DNA of 64,000 bases, from NCBI GenBank assembly GCA_913058265.1, contig CAJXPQ010000009.1:62001-126000 (forward strand), read 5' to 3'. Both the position numbers and the translations under genes were made by a program. Source of the DNA: an uncultured Oligoflexia bacterium. Lineage in GTDB: Bacteria; Bdellovibrionota; Bacteriovoracia; Bacteriovoracales; Bacteriovoracaceae. The notes below the pieces were generated by a model. That model saw only the letters and a program-made list of their open reading frames with translations, was not told the DNA's origin and did not search any database. This document shows positions 1 to 8,115 of the stretch, one piece after another (positions within the stretch are counted from its first letter, which is position 1; the number at the start of each line of letters is the position of its first letter).

Positions 1-26
1 TACTAACTTCATCCGTTTTTTTCTTT

Positions 27-557
27 TTGCAGAATAGTAGGAACGAAGTAGGTGGTAAGATATCCGCTGTTAAGTCAATTTGGTTGTTTTTTGTTATTTA
101 TTACTGGTTTTTGTTACCATTCTTTTTCTTTTTCATTAACTTTGATAATTATCAAACCTACATTCTTATTATTTCACTTCACCTTGTATCAATGTGGATC
201 AGAGGAATTATAGAACTTGTCATGATTTACAAATTTTATAATTGGTCTCCACTGTACGGTATAACACATACATTTGTTCACTTCTTAGGTATCTTACTTT
301 ACGTGGCAGTTAATTTTCTCTCACTTAGCAAATGGCCAATTGAATATTCACTCTATCTATTCATATTACTGGTAACACTTATATGTGAAGTGTGTTTTGC
401 TAAATCCTTCTGGGGCATAAGAGGGGACTCAGTTAACACAAAGAAAATTTACTTTGCTAGTGATGATCCAAAGTGGACCAAGATTAATAGATTAACATTC
501 AATGTTCTCTTATTCCTTAAAGGGTCATATCTATTTATGATGTTTTTATCTTTTTAG
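27..557 (+). CDS. Multipass membrane protein, unknown function (5' end possibly outside window)
   Basis: About 176 residues are visible. The reading frame is open back to the window edge with no in-frame stop, and the first possible start here is a TTG at 27, so the true start may lie upstream. The product is very hydrophobic, with about five membrane segments (near residues 15-38, 44-66, 82-102, 107-127 and 157-175) and aromatic-rich loops. I do not recognise the family. It converges on the NTF2-like gene, overlapping its 3' end by 23 bp, and lies beside the Rieske/desaturase/terpenoid-synthase cluster, so a role in the same membrane-lipid pathway is possible but unproven. Confidence 0.6.
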   Translation: MQNSRNEVGGKISAVKSIWLFFVIYYWFLLPFFFFFINFDNYQTYILIISLHLVSMWIRGIIELVMIYKFYNWSPLYGITHTFVHFLGILLYVAVNFLSLSKWPIEYSLYLFILLVTLICEVCFAKSFWGIRGDSVNTKKIYFASDDPKWTKINRLTFNVLLFLKGSYLFMMFLSF

Positions 558-1167
558 ATTTATTTTTAGAAATAAATAAACCTAAAAAAACTCCAAAAAT
601 AAATGCTATAATAATAAATATAATTGCATATCTTTTCGCATTATTAACTAAAGGGTTGTCAAACAAGTCCGTAGACGAGTGAAGGTTAATTATCTGCCAT
701 TTCCCATTGTTTTTTAATAGTGTGGTAGACCATCTTCCAGGTACATGGATTTCATTCCCATCAGTCATTATGAAGCTATCATTTGATTGTCCAAAGGAGA
801 TCCCAACCTCTCCCTCGTAAAGCCTAGTTAATTCATCTACCTGTATGCCACTTTTAAAACTTTCTACAACTTTGGTTCCACCGGACGTTTTCTCTTTCAA
901 GTAACGAATAATTTCTTTCGTACCCTTGCTTGTAGTAGCATCAGGCCATGTAACAATAGCATCTTCATGGAAGTCATCACTTAAGTTATCTAAGTCCCAA
1001 TTATCAACTTTTACTACTATGCTTTTGAAGAGCTTCCGAAGTTCAGAGTGTCTTTTATCTTCATCTATTTCTACCGAGGGAGAAGAGCTTAGACTAATGC
1101 TAACTTCATCATTCGAGATACTTTGAAATGAAAATAGAATACATATAATAATAAGTTTGAATTTCAT
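535..1167 (-). CDS. Membrane-anchored NTF2/SnoaL-like protein
   Basis: A 210-residue protein with an N-terminal signal peptide (about residues 1-18) and one C-terminal membrane helix (about 181-199) followed by a lysine-rich tail, so most of it should sit in the periplasm. The middle (about 40-165) has the pattern of a SnoaL/NTF2-like fold: a helix-rich start, then a DDFHEDAIVTWP segment and closing beta strands with GKWQIINLHSS. The fold assignment rests on pattern only. Its ATG overlaps the TGA of the Rieske oxygenase (ATGA), so the two are translationally coupled. SnoaL-like proteins often act as small cyclases, isomerases or binding proteins; the substrate here is unknown. Confidence 0.7.
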   Translation of the reverse strand: MKFKLIIICILFSFQSISNDEVSISLSSSPSVEIDEDKRHSELRKLFKSIVVKVDNWDLDNLSDDFHEDAIVTWPDATTSKGTKEIIRYLKEKTSGGTKVVESFKSGIQVDELTRLYEGEVGISFGQSNDSFIMTDGNEIHVPGRWSTTLLKNNGKWQIINLHSSTDLFDNPLVNNAKRYAIIFIIIAFIFGVFLGLFISKNKSKKIKTS

Positions 1168-2147
1168 GAATTATCCTTTGATTGTTTAATTTTAAAACCT
1201 TCATGGCCTTGAAGCCACTTGAAATATTCAATAATTGGAGTATCCTCAGTGTAGGTAGTCCCTAGATTGAAGTGTGTTCCGTGAAGTGTTCGAGCTTCTT
1301 CTTCTAAATATTTATATGTAAAGTGTCTTCTAACGGCCATGATTAATGGTTGAAATAGAGATTTAATTTTATTTGTTTTCTTACTGAAAACAATACCACT
1401 TAGTTTGCAGTTATTGTCATCTAGTGGTGTTGAGTTAAGAATAAAATACGATGTAACACCGTTACTAAACTTGCCGTTTAATAAAAATAGATTCGCCCCA
1501 TATGTATCAATAGTCATATTTATTTCTTTTCCTGCAACCAATTGTATCAGCTTCTCTCTCAAGGAGGTTCCTATTACTTTTGCTGTATATGTATTTGCTC
1601 TTTGGTATGGCATTTTGGAGTTAATTGTAATATCTGATAAAAGCTCCCGTTCATGTACAGATCTAAAGTGATTAAGGTCAAAGGCATGTGATGCTAAAGT
1701 GTACCAGTTTATCTCACCTTCAAAGGAGAAAGAACTTGAAGCTGTGAATTCCTCAATAAACTCATTAATAAAAAAAGGAAAATCAAATAATGCTTCTGTA
1801 TTGTTAAAGAAAAAAATATGTCCACATATATTTTTGACAGGATAAGTCTTAATGTTTGCCCAGCTTGGAACATCTTCACTATTAGGTGTATGAACGCATA
1901 TCCCCTTATCAAACTTGAAGCCGTGATAAGGACAAGTAATAGAACTCTTTGAAATTTTTCCTTTTGAGAGGTCTGCATTCATGTGAGGACATCTTGCGTC
2001 GCTCACATAGATATTGTCTTCATCTTTCCAAAGAAGATACTCTGACTTGTGTACCTTATGAACGATAGGAGCGCTCCGAAGCTGACTAATATGGCAAACG
2101 TAGTACCAGCCCGGGGGAACAATAGGAAAGTTTTCTTCTAATTTCAA
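1164..2147 (-). CDS. Rieske non-heme iron oxygenase
   Basis: Probable oxygenase subunit that hydroxylates or desaturates a hydrophobic substrate using a [2Fe-2S] cluster and a mononuclear iron. The Rieske ligands are clear: C-P-H and C-P-Y-H at about residues 53/55 and 72/75. The iron site D-x2-H-x4-H (in DLNHFRSVHER) is at about 157/160/165. I chose a TTG start at 2147 because a GGGGA ribosome-binding site lies 6 nt before it and the Rieske domain begins soon after. The longer ATG at 2207 has no binding site and would run 7 bp into the divergent desaturase. It is about 327 residues, the usual size for VanA-like oxygenases. No reductase partner is visible. It is coupled to the NTF2-like gene. 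Confidence 0.85.
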   Translation of the reverse strand: MKLEENFPIVPPGWYYVCHISQLRSAPIVHKVHKSEYLLWKDEDNIYVSDARCPHMNADLSKGKISKSSITCPYHGFKFDKGICVHTPNSEDVPSWANIKTYPVKNICGHIFFFNNTEALFDFPFFINEFIEEFTASSSFSFEGEINWYTLASHAFDLNHFRSVHERELLSDITINSKMPYQRANTYTAKVIGTSLREKLIQLVAGKEINMTIDTYGANLFLLNGKFSNGVTSYFILNSTPLDDNNCKLSGIVFSKKTNKIKSLFQPLIMAVRRHFTYKYLEEEARTLHGTHFNLGTTYTEDTPIIEYFKWLQGHEGFKIKQSKDNS

Positions 2148-2166
2148 ATGGAAGTCCCCAGCATTA

Positions 2167-2195
2167 TTTACATTAGAAACCTTACAATATATAAG
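2167..2195 (+). promoter_or_regulatory. Sigma-70-like promoter, leaderless, for the desaturase gene
   Basis: A TTTACA box (2167-2172), a 17-nt spacer and TATAAG (2190-2195) are seen. The ATG of the desaturase follows after only 5 nt, so transcription should begin at or next to the start codon. No ribosome-binding site precedes that ATG. The start site is inferred from spacing. Confidence 0.5.
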
Positions 2196-2200
2196 TAAGT

Positions 2201-3169
2201 ATGTCATATGGAATATTCAAAAAGCTGTTTCTTCGCAATAGCGGGCCACTGCTATCGTTACTTTGCTTCGTTATAATGTTCTCCTGCTTAAGTATTGGGA
2301 GTCACACTGACAACAATAGCCTGAAGGTTACACTTGTCATTATTTTTGCATTGGTAGGGAATACCAACTTCTCGTTAGTTCATGAAAGTACTCACAAACT
2401 CTTAAGCAGTAACCCTACGCACAACTATTTTTTTGGTTTTTTAAGTGCATTCTGGTTTCCTACTAGTATTACTTTTCAAAAAATATGTCATCTAAGTCAT
2501 CATCTTCGAAATAGAACAAAGTACGAAAGGTTCGATATATGTGTTGAAGGGAAAGATGTTAAAATATTTAAATTTTTACAATTCTACGGAATTATCACAG
2601 GTATTTACTGGTTTTTATCTCCGGTAAGCTGTCTATTATATATATTCTCCCCCTTTCTATATAGAGTTTTACGCTATTTGAGAGGAAAATATACCTTCCT
2701 TGAGGGGACTGGGATTATTATGCTGGAAAGTTTTGTTGACCATCCTAGTAGAAAAATAATAATCATCGAAACATTAGTAGTCTTAGCCGCTTATATTGCG
2801 CTGATTAAGTTTGATTATTTCAATCTAGGTTATGCTTTTTTGTGTTATTTTTCGTTCGGTGTTTTGTGGGGGAGTTTACAATATGCAGATCATGCATGGT
2901 CTGAACTTGATACAATACATGGAGCATGGGATTTAAAGATAAATACAGTAATGCAAGCTGTATTCCTCAACTACCATTTCCATAGGGCCCATCATTCTAA
3001 TCCAGATGTGCCATGGTATGAACTGGAAAACTATATAGATAGCAATGCTCTCAGGCCACGACATTTTAAAGTCTGGCTAAGAATGTTTAGAGGGCCTTTA
3101 ATCGTTCCAGATGTTAGTGATAAAGAACTAAATAAACTACTTAAAAACTATGCGAAGGAACTAGTCTGA
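2201..3169 (+). CDS. Membrane fatty-acid-desaturase/hydroxylase-type di-iron enzyme
   Basis: A 322-residue integral membrane protein with the three histidine boxes of the FA_desaturase superfamily: HESTH (61-65), HLSHH (97-101) and HRAHH (261-265), plus a D-H pair at 230-231. Enzymes of this fold use two irons and oxygen to desaturate or hydroxylate acyl chains, carotenoids or sterol-like lipids. The spacing of the boxes and the hydrophobic stretches between them fit four or more membrane helices. It is divergent from the Rieske gene and followed by the squalene/phytoene-synthase-like gene, so an isoprenoid substrate is as likely as a fatty acid. The ATG lacks a ribosome-binding site and looks leaderless. 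Confidence 0.85.
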   Translation: MSYGIFKKLFLRNSGPLLSLLCFVIMFSCLSIGSHTDNNSLKVTLVIIFALVGNTNFSLVHESTHKLLSSNPTHNYFFGFLSAFWFPTSITFQKICHLSHHLRNRTKYERFDICVEGKDVKIFKFLQFYGIITGIYWFLSPVSCLLYIFSPFLYRVLRYLRGKYTFLEGTGIIMLESFVDHPSRKIIIIETLVVLAAYIALIKFDYFNLGYAFLCYFSFGVLWGSLQYADHAWSELDTIHGAWDLKINTVMQAVFLNYHFHRAHHSNPDVPWYELENYIDSNALRPRHFKVWLRMFRGPLIVPDVSDKELNKLLKNYAKELV

Positions 3170-3204
3170 AAATTGAATTTATACTTTTAAAAGAGGTAAT
3201 CAGA

Positions 3205-3987
3205 ATGTCTCGGCGAAGTATTCGGTATTTTATAATATACTTGTTATTATATCTATTCGCATTCATTAATTATCGAAAATCAAAAAGACTGCGTATCGGT
3301 TTTACTTACCTCCAAAGAATTGATGATTATATGGATAGAGATTTGATTACAACAGAAGAGCCAATGGCCGTCTTAAAAAGTCACCTAGACACTAAGTCAA
3401 AATCTCTAGATCCAGTCCTAGATAGCTTATACACACATTTTATTGAACTGAAATTTTCAATAGAGGAAATTAAAAGAATTGAAGTTGCATTCTCCTCACT
3501 CATTCAGACTATGAGCGATGACTACTCCAGAAGGGAATATAGGGTAGTTAATAATCGATTAGAACTATATAAGCACATGCACAAGACATTTTATTTCTCT
3601 GTTGATCTGATGATAATGGTTATATTGCCAAATGAGAAAACTGAAGAGTATAGAGACCTTATCGATCTACTTATATGGTGCTCTATCGTAAGAGATCTTG
3701 AGGTAGATTTTTCAAGCGGACTATATAATATTCCTTCTGAGTTCCTTCAAAAAACAGATAGTCTAAGAACGCTATCATTTAATGAGTTTGAAACGTCCCC
3801 CTTTTTTCGTAAATGGCTAACCGAAATAACAGAAGAATTTTTTGATAATTTTCGAATTATGGAAGCAAGGGTATGTGCTTTAGGTTTTGGCCATAAAAAA
3901 CTAATATATACTATATTTCTAAGTTCTGCTCGAAAGTATTTAAGGGTTATGAGTACTAAGTACAATTTAACAGGTATCTCAGTATGA
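3205..3987 (+). CDS. Squalene/phytoene-synthase-like prenyl transferase
   Basis: A 260-residue, mostly alpha-helical protein with an N-terminal hydrophobic segment (about 9-22). The head-to-head prenyl synthase signatures are present. The first aspartate motif is R-I-D-D-Y-M-D (38-44). The second is R-D-L-E-V-D (163-168), followed by SGLYNIP, which corresponds to the family's RxYLP segment. The middle helix has the expected D-x3-R-x-Y pattern (about 105-112). The family joins two prenyl diphosphates to presqualene/squalene or phytoene; which product is made cannot be told from sequence. It is shorter than CrtB (about 300). An AGAGGT ribosome-binding site lies 7 nt before the ATG. Its stop overlaps the PAP2 gene start (ATGA), indicating coupling. 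Confidence 0.75.
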   Translation: MSRRSIRYFIIYLLLYLFAFINYRKSKRLRIGFTYLQRIDDYMDRDLITTEEPMAVLKSHLDTKSKSLDPVLDSLYTHFIELKFSIEEIKRIEVAFSSLIQTMSDDYSRREYRVVNNRLELYKHMHKTFYFSVDLMIMVILPNEKTEEYRDLIDLLIWCSIVRDLEVDFSSGLYNIPSEFLQKTDSLRTLSFNEFETSPFFRKWLTEITEEFFDNFRIMEARVCALGFGHKKLIYTIFLSSARKYLRVMSTKYNLTGISV

Positions 3988-4613
3988 TTATACTTAAATT
4001 AAAATCTTTTTTTAAGTATTATATACCTTTGGCCATTGTGTTCAGCTTTTTGTACGGAGCAGCTAACTACCTTACTGAATTACGTGAATTTCATTATAAT
4101 TTTTATCTCCCTTTTGAGCTCTATATTCCCTTCATTCCAGAGTTTATATTCGCCTATCTTTCTTTAAATTTTTACTTTTTTTTTATGAACTATATTCTAA
4201 CTGAGAAAGAGCTGAGGGGGATCATAAGAGGTAAGTACATGATACTTATTGTTTCAGTCGTTTTATTCTTATTGTTTCCTGCAAACTTAGGTTACTCAAG
4301 AGATTTTAAAGATTATAACGGACTATTGTTTCTATACAGTAGTCTATATACTTTAGATAAGCCTCATAATTTGGTTCCTTCGTTACATGTCTGCTTCGCA
4401 CTAATAACAATGCTGGGCATCAGTAGAAGTCAAAATAAATCCAAGTTGATAAATGCGATTTCCATAATTTGGTTCTGCTTAATTGTCATTTCGACAATCT
4501 TTACAAAACAACACCACATACTGGATGTGATTGCGGGTCTTGTTGTTGGATACCTTGGATTCGTTTTTAGTAGCAGAGCTTTTGTTGGAGATATGGATGG
4601 AGTACCTGATTAA
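3984..4613 (+). CDS. PAP2-type membrane phosphatase / phosphotransferase
   Basis: A 209-residue multipass protein. The conserved acid-phosphatase core is visible: N-L-V-P-S-L-H (near residue 130) and S-T-I-F-T-K-Q-H-H-I-L-D-V (near 172), the catalytic His and the His/Asp pair of the PAP2 superfamily. The PSLH form and the KQHHxxDV form resemble the inositol-phosphorylceramide-synthase-like (AUR1-type) branch. It probably removes or transfers a phosphate from a lipid at the outer face of the inner membrane. It is coupled to the prenyl-synthase-like gene by a 4-bp overlap, so an isoprenyl (di)phosphate is a reasonable candidate substrate, though this is inference. Confidence 0.8.
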   Translation: MIILKLKSFFKYYIPLAIVFSFLYGAANYLTELREFHYNFYLPFELYIPFIPEFIFAYLSLNFYFFFMNYILTEKELRGIIRGKYMILIVSVVLFLLFPANLGYSRDFKDYNGLLFLYSSLYTLDKPHNLVPSLHVCFALITMLGISRSQNKSKLINAISIIWFCLIVISTIFTKQHHILDVIAGLVVGYLGFVFSSRAFVGDMDGVPD

Positions 4614-4639
4614 CTAGATTGAACATCGAAGATAACAGC

Positions 4640-4663
4640 GCACGATAAGAAACATTATCGTGC
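4640..4663. terminator. Hairpin between convergent genes
   Basis: A perfect 9-bp inverted repeat (GCACGATAA / TTATCGTGC) with a 6-nt loop lies between the PAP2 gene and the convergent barrel gene. There is no T-run on either side, so it may work as a weak terminator or a 3' end-protecting hairpin. Confidence 0.45.
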
Positions 4664-4695
4664 AATGCGTCAAACCTCTATCCCTTAACACAAAC

Positions 4696-7416: not shown

Positions 7417-8115
7417 ATGATGAAATACCTAGTATTTTTAACGGCTTGTATAAGCTTTGTTGCTCATGCAGACTACTCAGAAAGTGAGTTTAAATCTGAT
7501 CTTAGTTCTGCTTATACTAATAAGACATCTCAAGATATCTGGCTTTATGGTGGCAGCACAACCTTGGCCTTGGTTCTTTTCAGAGATCAATTAGTGGAAC
7601 CTCTACAGGATGATATAGCTGAGAAGGAACCACTGGGCCGCGCATCCCCTATTGGTGATTATGCAGGTCAATTGGTACCAAATGTTATCTATATGAGTTA
7701 CCAATTGTGGTTTCTTAATACACCGGAGAGTCAAAGACGTGGGAAATACATGTTGAAGGCTTCCGCTTTTGCCGGTATGACAACATTCTTTTTGAAGCGA
7801 TTAATTAATGAGAAACGACCTCACGGCGGAGATAGAAATTCAATGCCTTCTGGGCATACCACTACTGCTTTTGCTTTTGCCTCAGTAATTGGGATAGAGC
7901 ACCCAGAGTGGAAATGGTATGGGTATGGTTTAGCAACTTTTATTGGTTTGAGTCGGATGAATGATAATGAGCACTACTTACATAATGTAACTATGGGAGC
8001 AACAATTGGGATGGCCTATGGATATGGCTTACAGAATTCTAAAAGCTTTATGTCAAATACTATGGTTTTAGCCTTAAATGATGGTGGGATGGTTGCTTAT
8101 AATTACAAGTTCTAA
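7417..8115 (+). CDS. PAP2 superfamily phosphatase with signal peptide
   Basis: A 232-residue protein with a signal peptide (to about residue 18) and the three PAP2 signatures in order: K-x6-R-P (KRLINEKRP), P-S-G-H (MPSGHTTTAF) and S-R-x5-H (SRMNDNEHYLH). In the last motif the usual Asp three residues after the His is Asn (H-Y-L-H-N). The mature part has few strong membrane helices, so it may be a periplasmic or outer-membrane-associated lipid or nucleotide phosphatase, like the secreted class A acid phosphatases or LpxE/F-like enzymes. It is monocistronic, converges with the small ORF at 8112 (4-bp overlap), and has a leaderless-type promoter. Confidence 0.8.
   Translation: MMKYLVFLTACISFVAHADYSESEFKSDLSSAYTNKTSQDIWLYGGSTTLALVLFRDQLVEPLQDDIAEKEPLGRASPIGDYAGQLVPNVIYMSYQLWFLNTPESQRRGKYMLKASAFAGMTTFFLKRLINEKRPHGGDRNSMPSGHTTTAFAFASVIGIEHPEWKWYGYGLATFIGLSRMNDNEHYLHNVTMGATIGMAYGYGLQNSKSFMSNTMVLALNDGGMVAYNYKF

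Follow-up and report, generated by a model that had tools for sequence, protein, structure and literature searches.

What is made by the group of five genes that lies near the beginning (positions 535-4613) of a 64,000-nucleotide stretch of DNA from an uncultured Oligoflexia bacterium of the family Bacteriovoracaceae (contig CAJXPQ010000009.1, positions 62,001 to 126,000; hereafter the window)? In our numbering of genomes (G), contigs (C), and loci (L), window positions 1-4613 correspond to G000:C9:62001-66613. The genes encode a SnoaL/NTF2-like protein, a Rieske non-haem iron oxygenase, a membrane di-iron desaturase/hydroxylase, a divergent squalene/phytoene-synthase (SQS/PSY)-like protein of 260 residues (SQS-like), and a PAP2-superfamily phosphatase/phosphotransferase. 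A sequence-only reading of this DNA had taken them for a self-contained pathway that builds and oxidizes an isoprenoid membrane lipid or pigment, and all five are present where it had placed them. The answer proposed here, to which we give an even chance, is that this locus belongs to a biosynthetic cluster, rare and of scattered occurrence, that makes an oxidized isoprenoid lipid at the inner membrane.

Do these genes belong to one pathway? A scan of the genomes of 84,980 species with an alignment of the SQS-like protein gave 12 further loci, found in Bacteriovoracaceae, a Pseudobacteriovorax-labelled metagenome-assembled genome (MAG), Planctomycetota, Acidobacteriota, and Gammaproteobacteria; the expected co-occurrence is thus seen in four phyla. 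The SQS-like gene is rare, being present in 6 of 369 Bdellovibrionota genomes (a seventh, weak match is spurious), in 1 of 193 genomes of one acidobacterial class, and in 1 of 9 of one planctomycete class. The weak match in G077 has the appearance of a DsbA/thioredoxin-like protein and is not a relative. At the 13 SQS-like loci, the window's included, a desaturase is found 12 times, a Rieske oxygenase 11, PAP2 11, and SnoaL 6, some of the loci being cut off at contig edges. The Rieske protein, used as the only query sequence against GTDB contigs, gave no match. Three kinds of gene fusion have also been found: desaturase-SQS in G115, G116, and G118; PAP2-SQS, with PAP2 N-terminal of the SQS-like domain, in L064, L066, L068, and L070; and a desaturase-PAP2-SQS triple fusion of 834 residues in a planctomycete (L065/L090; L065:6396-8900). 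Fusions of this kind, recurring in several phyla, would make little sense if the desaturase, PAP2, and SQS-like proteins did not act in one pathway. Together with the same association at 12 further loci, they support the earlier claim that the genes make up a single pathway, and place their association beyond chance.

As a single sequence, the SQS-like protein (3205-3987, plus strand) has no match in Pfam and a weak one to the HpnD profile (E 0.006). It carries DDxxDxD at residues 40-46 and RDxxxD at residues 163-168, and these two Asp-rich motifs, already recognized in the sequence-only reading, are invariant in 13/13 members. Both are aligned when the family is compared by hhalign with canonical CrtB/HpnC/HpnD-like sequences (E 6e-5, probability 65%). 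PF00494 (SQS_PSY) matches five of the 13 homologues, only L064 above the Pfam cut-off (30.9 vs 26 bits), and other homologues match HpnC/HpnD at about 2e-5. Sequence searches of the PDB with the protein and with profiles gave nothing significant, and the fold was therefore tested by structure prediction. An AlphaFold model built with 13 sequences (pLDDT 88.9, pTM 0.85) predicts a class I all-helical isoprenoid-synthase fold; its best TM-scores in Foldseek, reaching 0.61 at prob 1.00, are those with CrtM and with human squalene synthase, in agreement with the SQS/PSY-type fold expected earlier. With a previous model of lower confidence, too, CrtM and SQS predominated among the top matches. As the Foldseek E-values are about 0.02, and all >0.01, the predicted fold class is firm, while the placement in the SQS/PSY subfamily is only probable. 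The absence of two signature stretches of the canonical enzymes leads us to describe the protein as a divergent sister clade, and not as a squalene or phytoene synthase proper.

Could the cluster then be a piece of an ordinary pathway to carotenoids, hopanoids, or sterols? The SQS/PSY family itself, together with the HpnN-like transporter and the HpnJ/BchE-like radical SAM neighbors seen in relatives, would fit such an origin. However, the window's genome has a separate and complete carotenoid cluster on another contig (G000:C1, L071:8337-14852), with genes named by reading of their sequences as GGPP synthase, GHMP kinase, CrtI, canonical CrtB, cyclase, and CrtZ-like (crtE/I/B/Y/Z-like); the GHMP gene, mevalonate-kinase-like, adjoins that of GGPP synthase. 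In addition, canonical SQS/PSY is absent from several of the genomes that bear the SQS-like gene, including G006, G115, and G116. Neither CrtI nor a cyclase was seen beside the SQS-like genes at the 13 loci, in accordance with the earlier remark that the window's locus has neither a cyclase nor CrtI. The annotated neighborhoods of the same loci contain no HpnC+HpnD+HpnE set or squalene-hopene cyclase, the latter not having been searched genome-wide. On these grounds, which for the cyclase cover the annotated neighborhoods, the carotenoid and hopanoid readings were rejected, an ordinary pathway is regarded as very improbable, and the suggestion of a pigment is weakened.

The remaining four proteins all match Pfam families. 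The desaturase (2201-3169, plus strand; FA_desaturase, PF00487, E 9e-16) has the His boxes HxxxH, HxxHH, and HxxHH, invariant in 10 homologues. The Rieske oxygenase (1164-2207, minus strand; PF00355, E 2e-19), related in the PDB to SxtDIOX and DdmC, shows the CxH...CxxH motif of the 2Fe-2S center and the catalytic DxxHxxxxH, invariant in 11 homologues. Its start is probably the TTG at 2147 rather than the ATG at 2207, to judge from the GGGGA just upstream of the former and the nearby starts of homologues, and because the ATG would overlap the start of the divergent desaturase gene. The PAP2 protein (3984-4613, plus strand; PAP2_3 type, PF14378, E 3e-10) keeps the catalytic PSxH and HxxxD, invariant in seven homologues, and lacks the Arg of SRx5Hx3D. 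The SnoaL protein (535-1167, minus strand; PF13474, E 2.5e-5, above the cut-off) has an N-terminal signal-like segment and a C-terminal transmembrane helix, from which a periplasmic location is likely; orthologues of the same architecture adjoin the SQS-like gene in Planctomycetota, Acidobacteriota, and Gammaproteobacteria. This topology, together with PAP2, suggests that part of the pathway's work is done on the periplasmic side. Overlaps of 4 bp join the Rieske stop to the SnoaL start, and the SQS-like gene to that of PAP2.

Is the pathway complete in these five genes? In the planctomycete G371 a single operon of eight overlapping genes encodes two B12-radical-SAM enzymes, two GNAT-like proteins, GH3, SnoaL, Rieske, and the triple fusion, and in other genomes, too, the cluster carries a GH3 amide synthetase and GNAT-like proteins, with B12-radical-SAM enzymes a frequent addition. 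The G006 cluster holds in addition an RND transporter, an AurF-like di-iron protein, a second desaturase, a hexapeptide transferase, the F17 membrane protein described below, a secreted protein of 500 residues without known family, and a protein combining NqrB/RnfD, FG-GAP, and UnbV/ASPIC parts. The SQS-like gene overlaps that of the RND transporter in G006, G115, and G116, and G118 has the same order; this transporter has weak HpnN/HAE3 similarity. In the window's genome, contig C4 encodes GNAT, GH3, a second Rieske, AurF-like, F2, RND, GNAT, and RnfD-UnbV proteins, and since the gene sets of C9 and C4 sum to nearly the single cluster of G006, the pathway is probably split here over two loci. 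The description of the cluster as self-contained therefore fails: it includes no prenyl-diphosphate synthase, and the GH3, GNAT, AurF-like, RND exporter, and RnfD/UnbV proteins are encoded on the other contig. Single NqrB/RnfD-FG-GAP-UnbV/ASPIC proteins lie beside GH3/Rieske genes at L092:2171-4939 (G000:C4), L038:319-3117, and L046:16075-18000; UnbU and UnbV are conserved genes of enediyne clusters. The F2 family, secreted proteins of ~500 residues with no significant Pfam match, recurs beside Rieske/RND genes (L038:6470-7999, L051:9641-11197).

How might these enzymes work together? We infer the substrates, the order of the steps, the amide linkage, and the export as follows. The SQS/PSY-type enzyme would couple two prenyl diphosphates taken from central metabolism, farnesyl (FPP) or geranylgeranyl diphosphate (GGPP), possibly halting at a presqualene-type diphosphate. 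The coupled or fused PAP2 would then strip the (di)phosphate to leave a membrane-held alcohol, whose chain would be desaturated or hydroxylated by the Rieske oxygenase and by the di-iron membrane enzyme that is fused to the synthase or encoded next to it, while the periplasmic SnoaL protein may catalyze an isomerization, dehydration, or cyclization. An acid product would be joined to an amine by the GH3 and GNAT-like enzymes, whose genes are part of the cluster in other genomes and lie on the other contig in this one, and the RND/MMPL protein would remove the lipid from the inner membrane. A bolder reading, that bacterial isoprenoid lipids of a new class are made here, in which the synthase stops at a cyclopropylcarbinyl diphosphate, the fused PAP2 makes the alcohol, the desaturase and Rieske enzymes the acid, GH3/GNAT the amide, and RND exports the whole, is considered rather improbable.

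Several observations weigh against an isoprenoid membrane lipid. Class I terpene synthases, which use a single substrate, are also found by Foldseek at prob 1.00, with generally lower TM-scores; the QLTNxxRD and YCxxVAGxVG signatures are absent from the SQS-like family, which has WCSxxRD and TFxxSxD instead; and the window's member, which diverges most (branch 3.66) and evolves fastest, has by itself no Pfam match, although its motifs are intact. In one rival reading the SQS-like protein is a class I terpene synthase that ionizes one GGPP or FPP. Its C15/C20 product, a hydrocarbon or an alcohol, would be converted by the desaturase, Rieske, and GH3 proteins to a small diffusible terpenoid acid or amide, a secondary metabolite and not a membrane lipid. 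For the better model, linalool/nerolidol and diterpene synthases do stand beside CrtM and SQS, the altered helix is the one that bears YCxxVAGxVG in SQS/PSY, and the sparse scatter among Bdellovibrionota would suit a secondary metabolite. On the other hand, the second motif is the RDxxxD of SQS/PSY, where terpene cyclases have an NSE triad; the sequence families that match better are HpnC, HpnD, and SQS_PSY; and the TM-scores to CrtM/SQS (mostly 0.53-0.61) exceed those to bacterial cyclases (0.4-0.53). A terpene synthase is regarded as an unlikely alternative.

To the same side belong the genomes G001 and G046, which carry desaturase, PAP2, and Rieske genes together and have no SQS-like or canonical SQS/PSY gene; the G046 locus also holds GH3, GNAT, and radical SAM genes. 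It follows that the module for oxidation and conjugation is able to use a different backbone, and that the product of the SQS-bearing loci could be mixed. A Lnb_N/DUF4105 protein was considered as a replacement of SQS in both genomes and rejected as unrelated. The two genomes might point to a fatty-acyl backbone on which the desaturase, PAP2, Rieske, GH3, and GNAT enzymes work, the SQS-like protein adding an isoprenoid part or serving as an accessory that binds a lipid diphosphate. The desaturase is indeed of the FA_desaturase family, and GH3 enzymes activate acids. But that family also includes terpenoid oxygenases such as CrtW, desaturase and PAP2 are fused directly to the SQS-like domain, and both Asp-rich motifs are invariant in 13 divergent members, as would be expected of an active prenyl-diphosphate enzyme; a fatty-acyl product is accordingly considered rather improbable. 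It must be added that the partnership of C4 and C9 is drawn from one full parallel, G006. With respect to the sequence-only reading, an isoprenoid core of the product appears likely, but the related loci of G001 and G046, with no SQS at all, limit that claim.

Compared with known systems, the cluster resembles the HpnC/HpnD/HpnE squalene pathway in its SQS/PSY-family synthase with aligned Asp-rich motifs, its weak HpnC/HpnD matches, and an RND protein distantly like HpnN, but has one synthase, no HpnE or squalene-hopene cyclase nearby, and PAP2, desaturase, Rieske, SnoaL, GH3, and GNAT in addition. With CrtM/CrtB it shares DDxxD, RDxxxD, and a structural match (CrtM, TM-score about 0.6) that is among the best; unlike them, it has WCS and TFxxSxD in place of QLTN and YCxxVAGxVG and no CrtI partner, and a canonical CrtB is found elsewhere in the genome. 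Human PLPP6/PPAPDC2 is a presqualene diphosphate phosphatase of the PAP2 superfamily that acts on an SQS intermediate; the cluster's PAP2, a putative phosphatase of the same superfamily, is fused to SQS-like domains in relatives, but its sequence is bacterial and of PAP2_3 type. The Rieske protein, with its Rieske and catalytic-iron motifs and about 340 residues, is like SxtT/SxtDIOX, DdmC, and KshA, but of low identity, and falls in clades whose genes neighbor those of SQS-like proteins. No published account of the cluster was found in the open-access literature searched, in agreement with the earlier remark that it matches no known pathway. The chemistry is of known kinds; the combination of genes and the SQS clade appear undescribed.

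With regard to its history, the Rieske tree places the window's copy with SQS-neighbor Rieske proteins of Planctomycetota, Acidobacteriota, and Gammaproteobacteria (98/93), and homologues of its SnoaL were found only at SQS-like loci. In contrast to the cross-phylum kinship favored by the Rieske tree, the desaturase tree groups the window's copy with its own family, and the SQS-like tree lacks resolution; the history is mixed, and transfer of a whole cassette is not claimed.

The neighborhood extends beyond the five genes named earlier, since two further members had been missed. F17, a multi-transmembrane protein of 208 residues with no known family or Pfam match, is encoded on the plus strand from 70 bp before the window (G000:C9:61931) to position 557 (-69 to 557), and its homologue in G006 (L038:11130-11768, 38% identity) lies between the SQS-like and PAP2 genes. 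A double-GNAT-like gene (F12) lies directly upstream of the window on the minus strand (G000:C9:60754-61908). The cluster ends convergently at a terminator-like hairpin (4639-4664; a stem of 10 pairs followed on the minus strand by a T-tail, a consensus match only), beyond which an unrelated convergent gene follows. None of the remaining open reading frames of the window belongs to the cluster families of relatives; a second PAP2 gene (7417-8115), 2.8 kb off the cluster, is unrelated. Among the relatives, the Pseudobacteriovorax-labelled MAG has its SQS-like gene followed by a cytochrome P450, a possible alternative oxygenase, and a desaturase (L069:7956-11044), with no Rieske or PAP2 nearby. 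A Thermoanaerobaculum MAG (L070:12008-16160) has, 3 kb downstream of its PAP2-SQS fusion, a set that reads by eye as OleABCD-like (KAS III, alpha/beta hydrolase, AMP ligase, SDR). Further clusters of Bacteriovoracaceae (L048, L049, L043, L044, and L047) hold one to four Rieske oxygenases and no SQS-like gene, with fatty-acid hydroxylases, ferritin-like/AurF-like di-iron proteins, GH3, SDR, and MMPL as partners, and form a wider family of oxygenase-rich clusters.

A cluster common to relatives of predatory bacteria, planctomycetes, acidobacteria, and gammaproteobacteria can now be named as a coherent unit. Annotation by domains would overlook most of it, since the scores of its key enzyme are usually too low for the SQS_PSY cut-off. 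The naturally occurring fusion of desaturase, PAP2, and SQS-like domains offers a ready handle for discovery of the product by expression in a single host. Should that product prove to be a membrane lipid, it would add to the isoprenoid lipids one that is neither a hopanoid nor a sterol nor a carotenoid.

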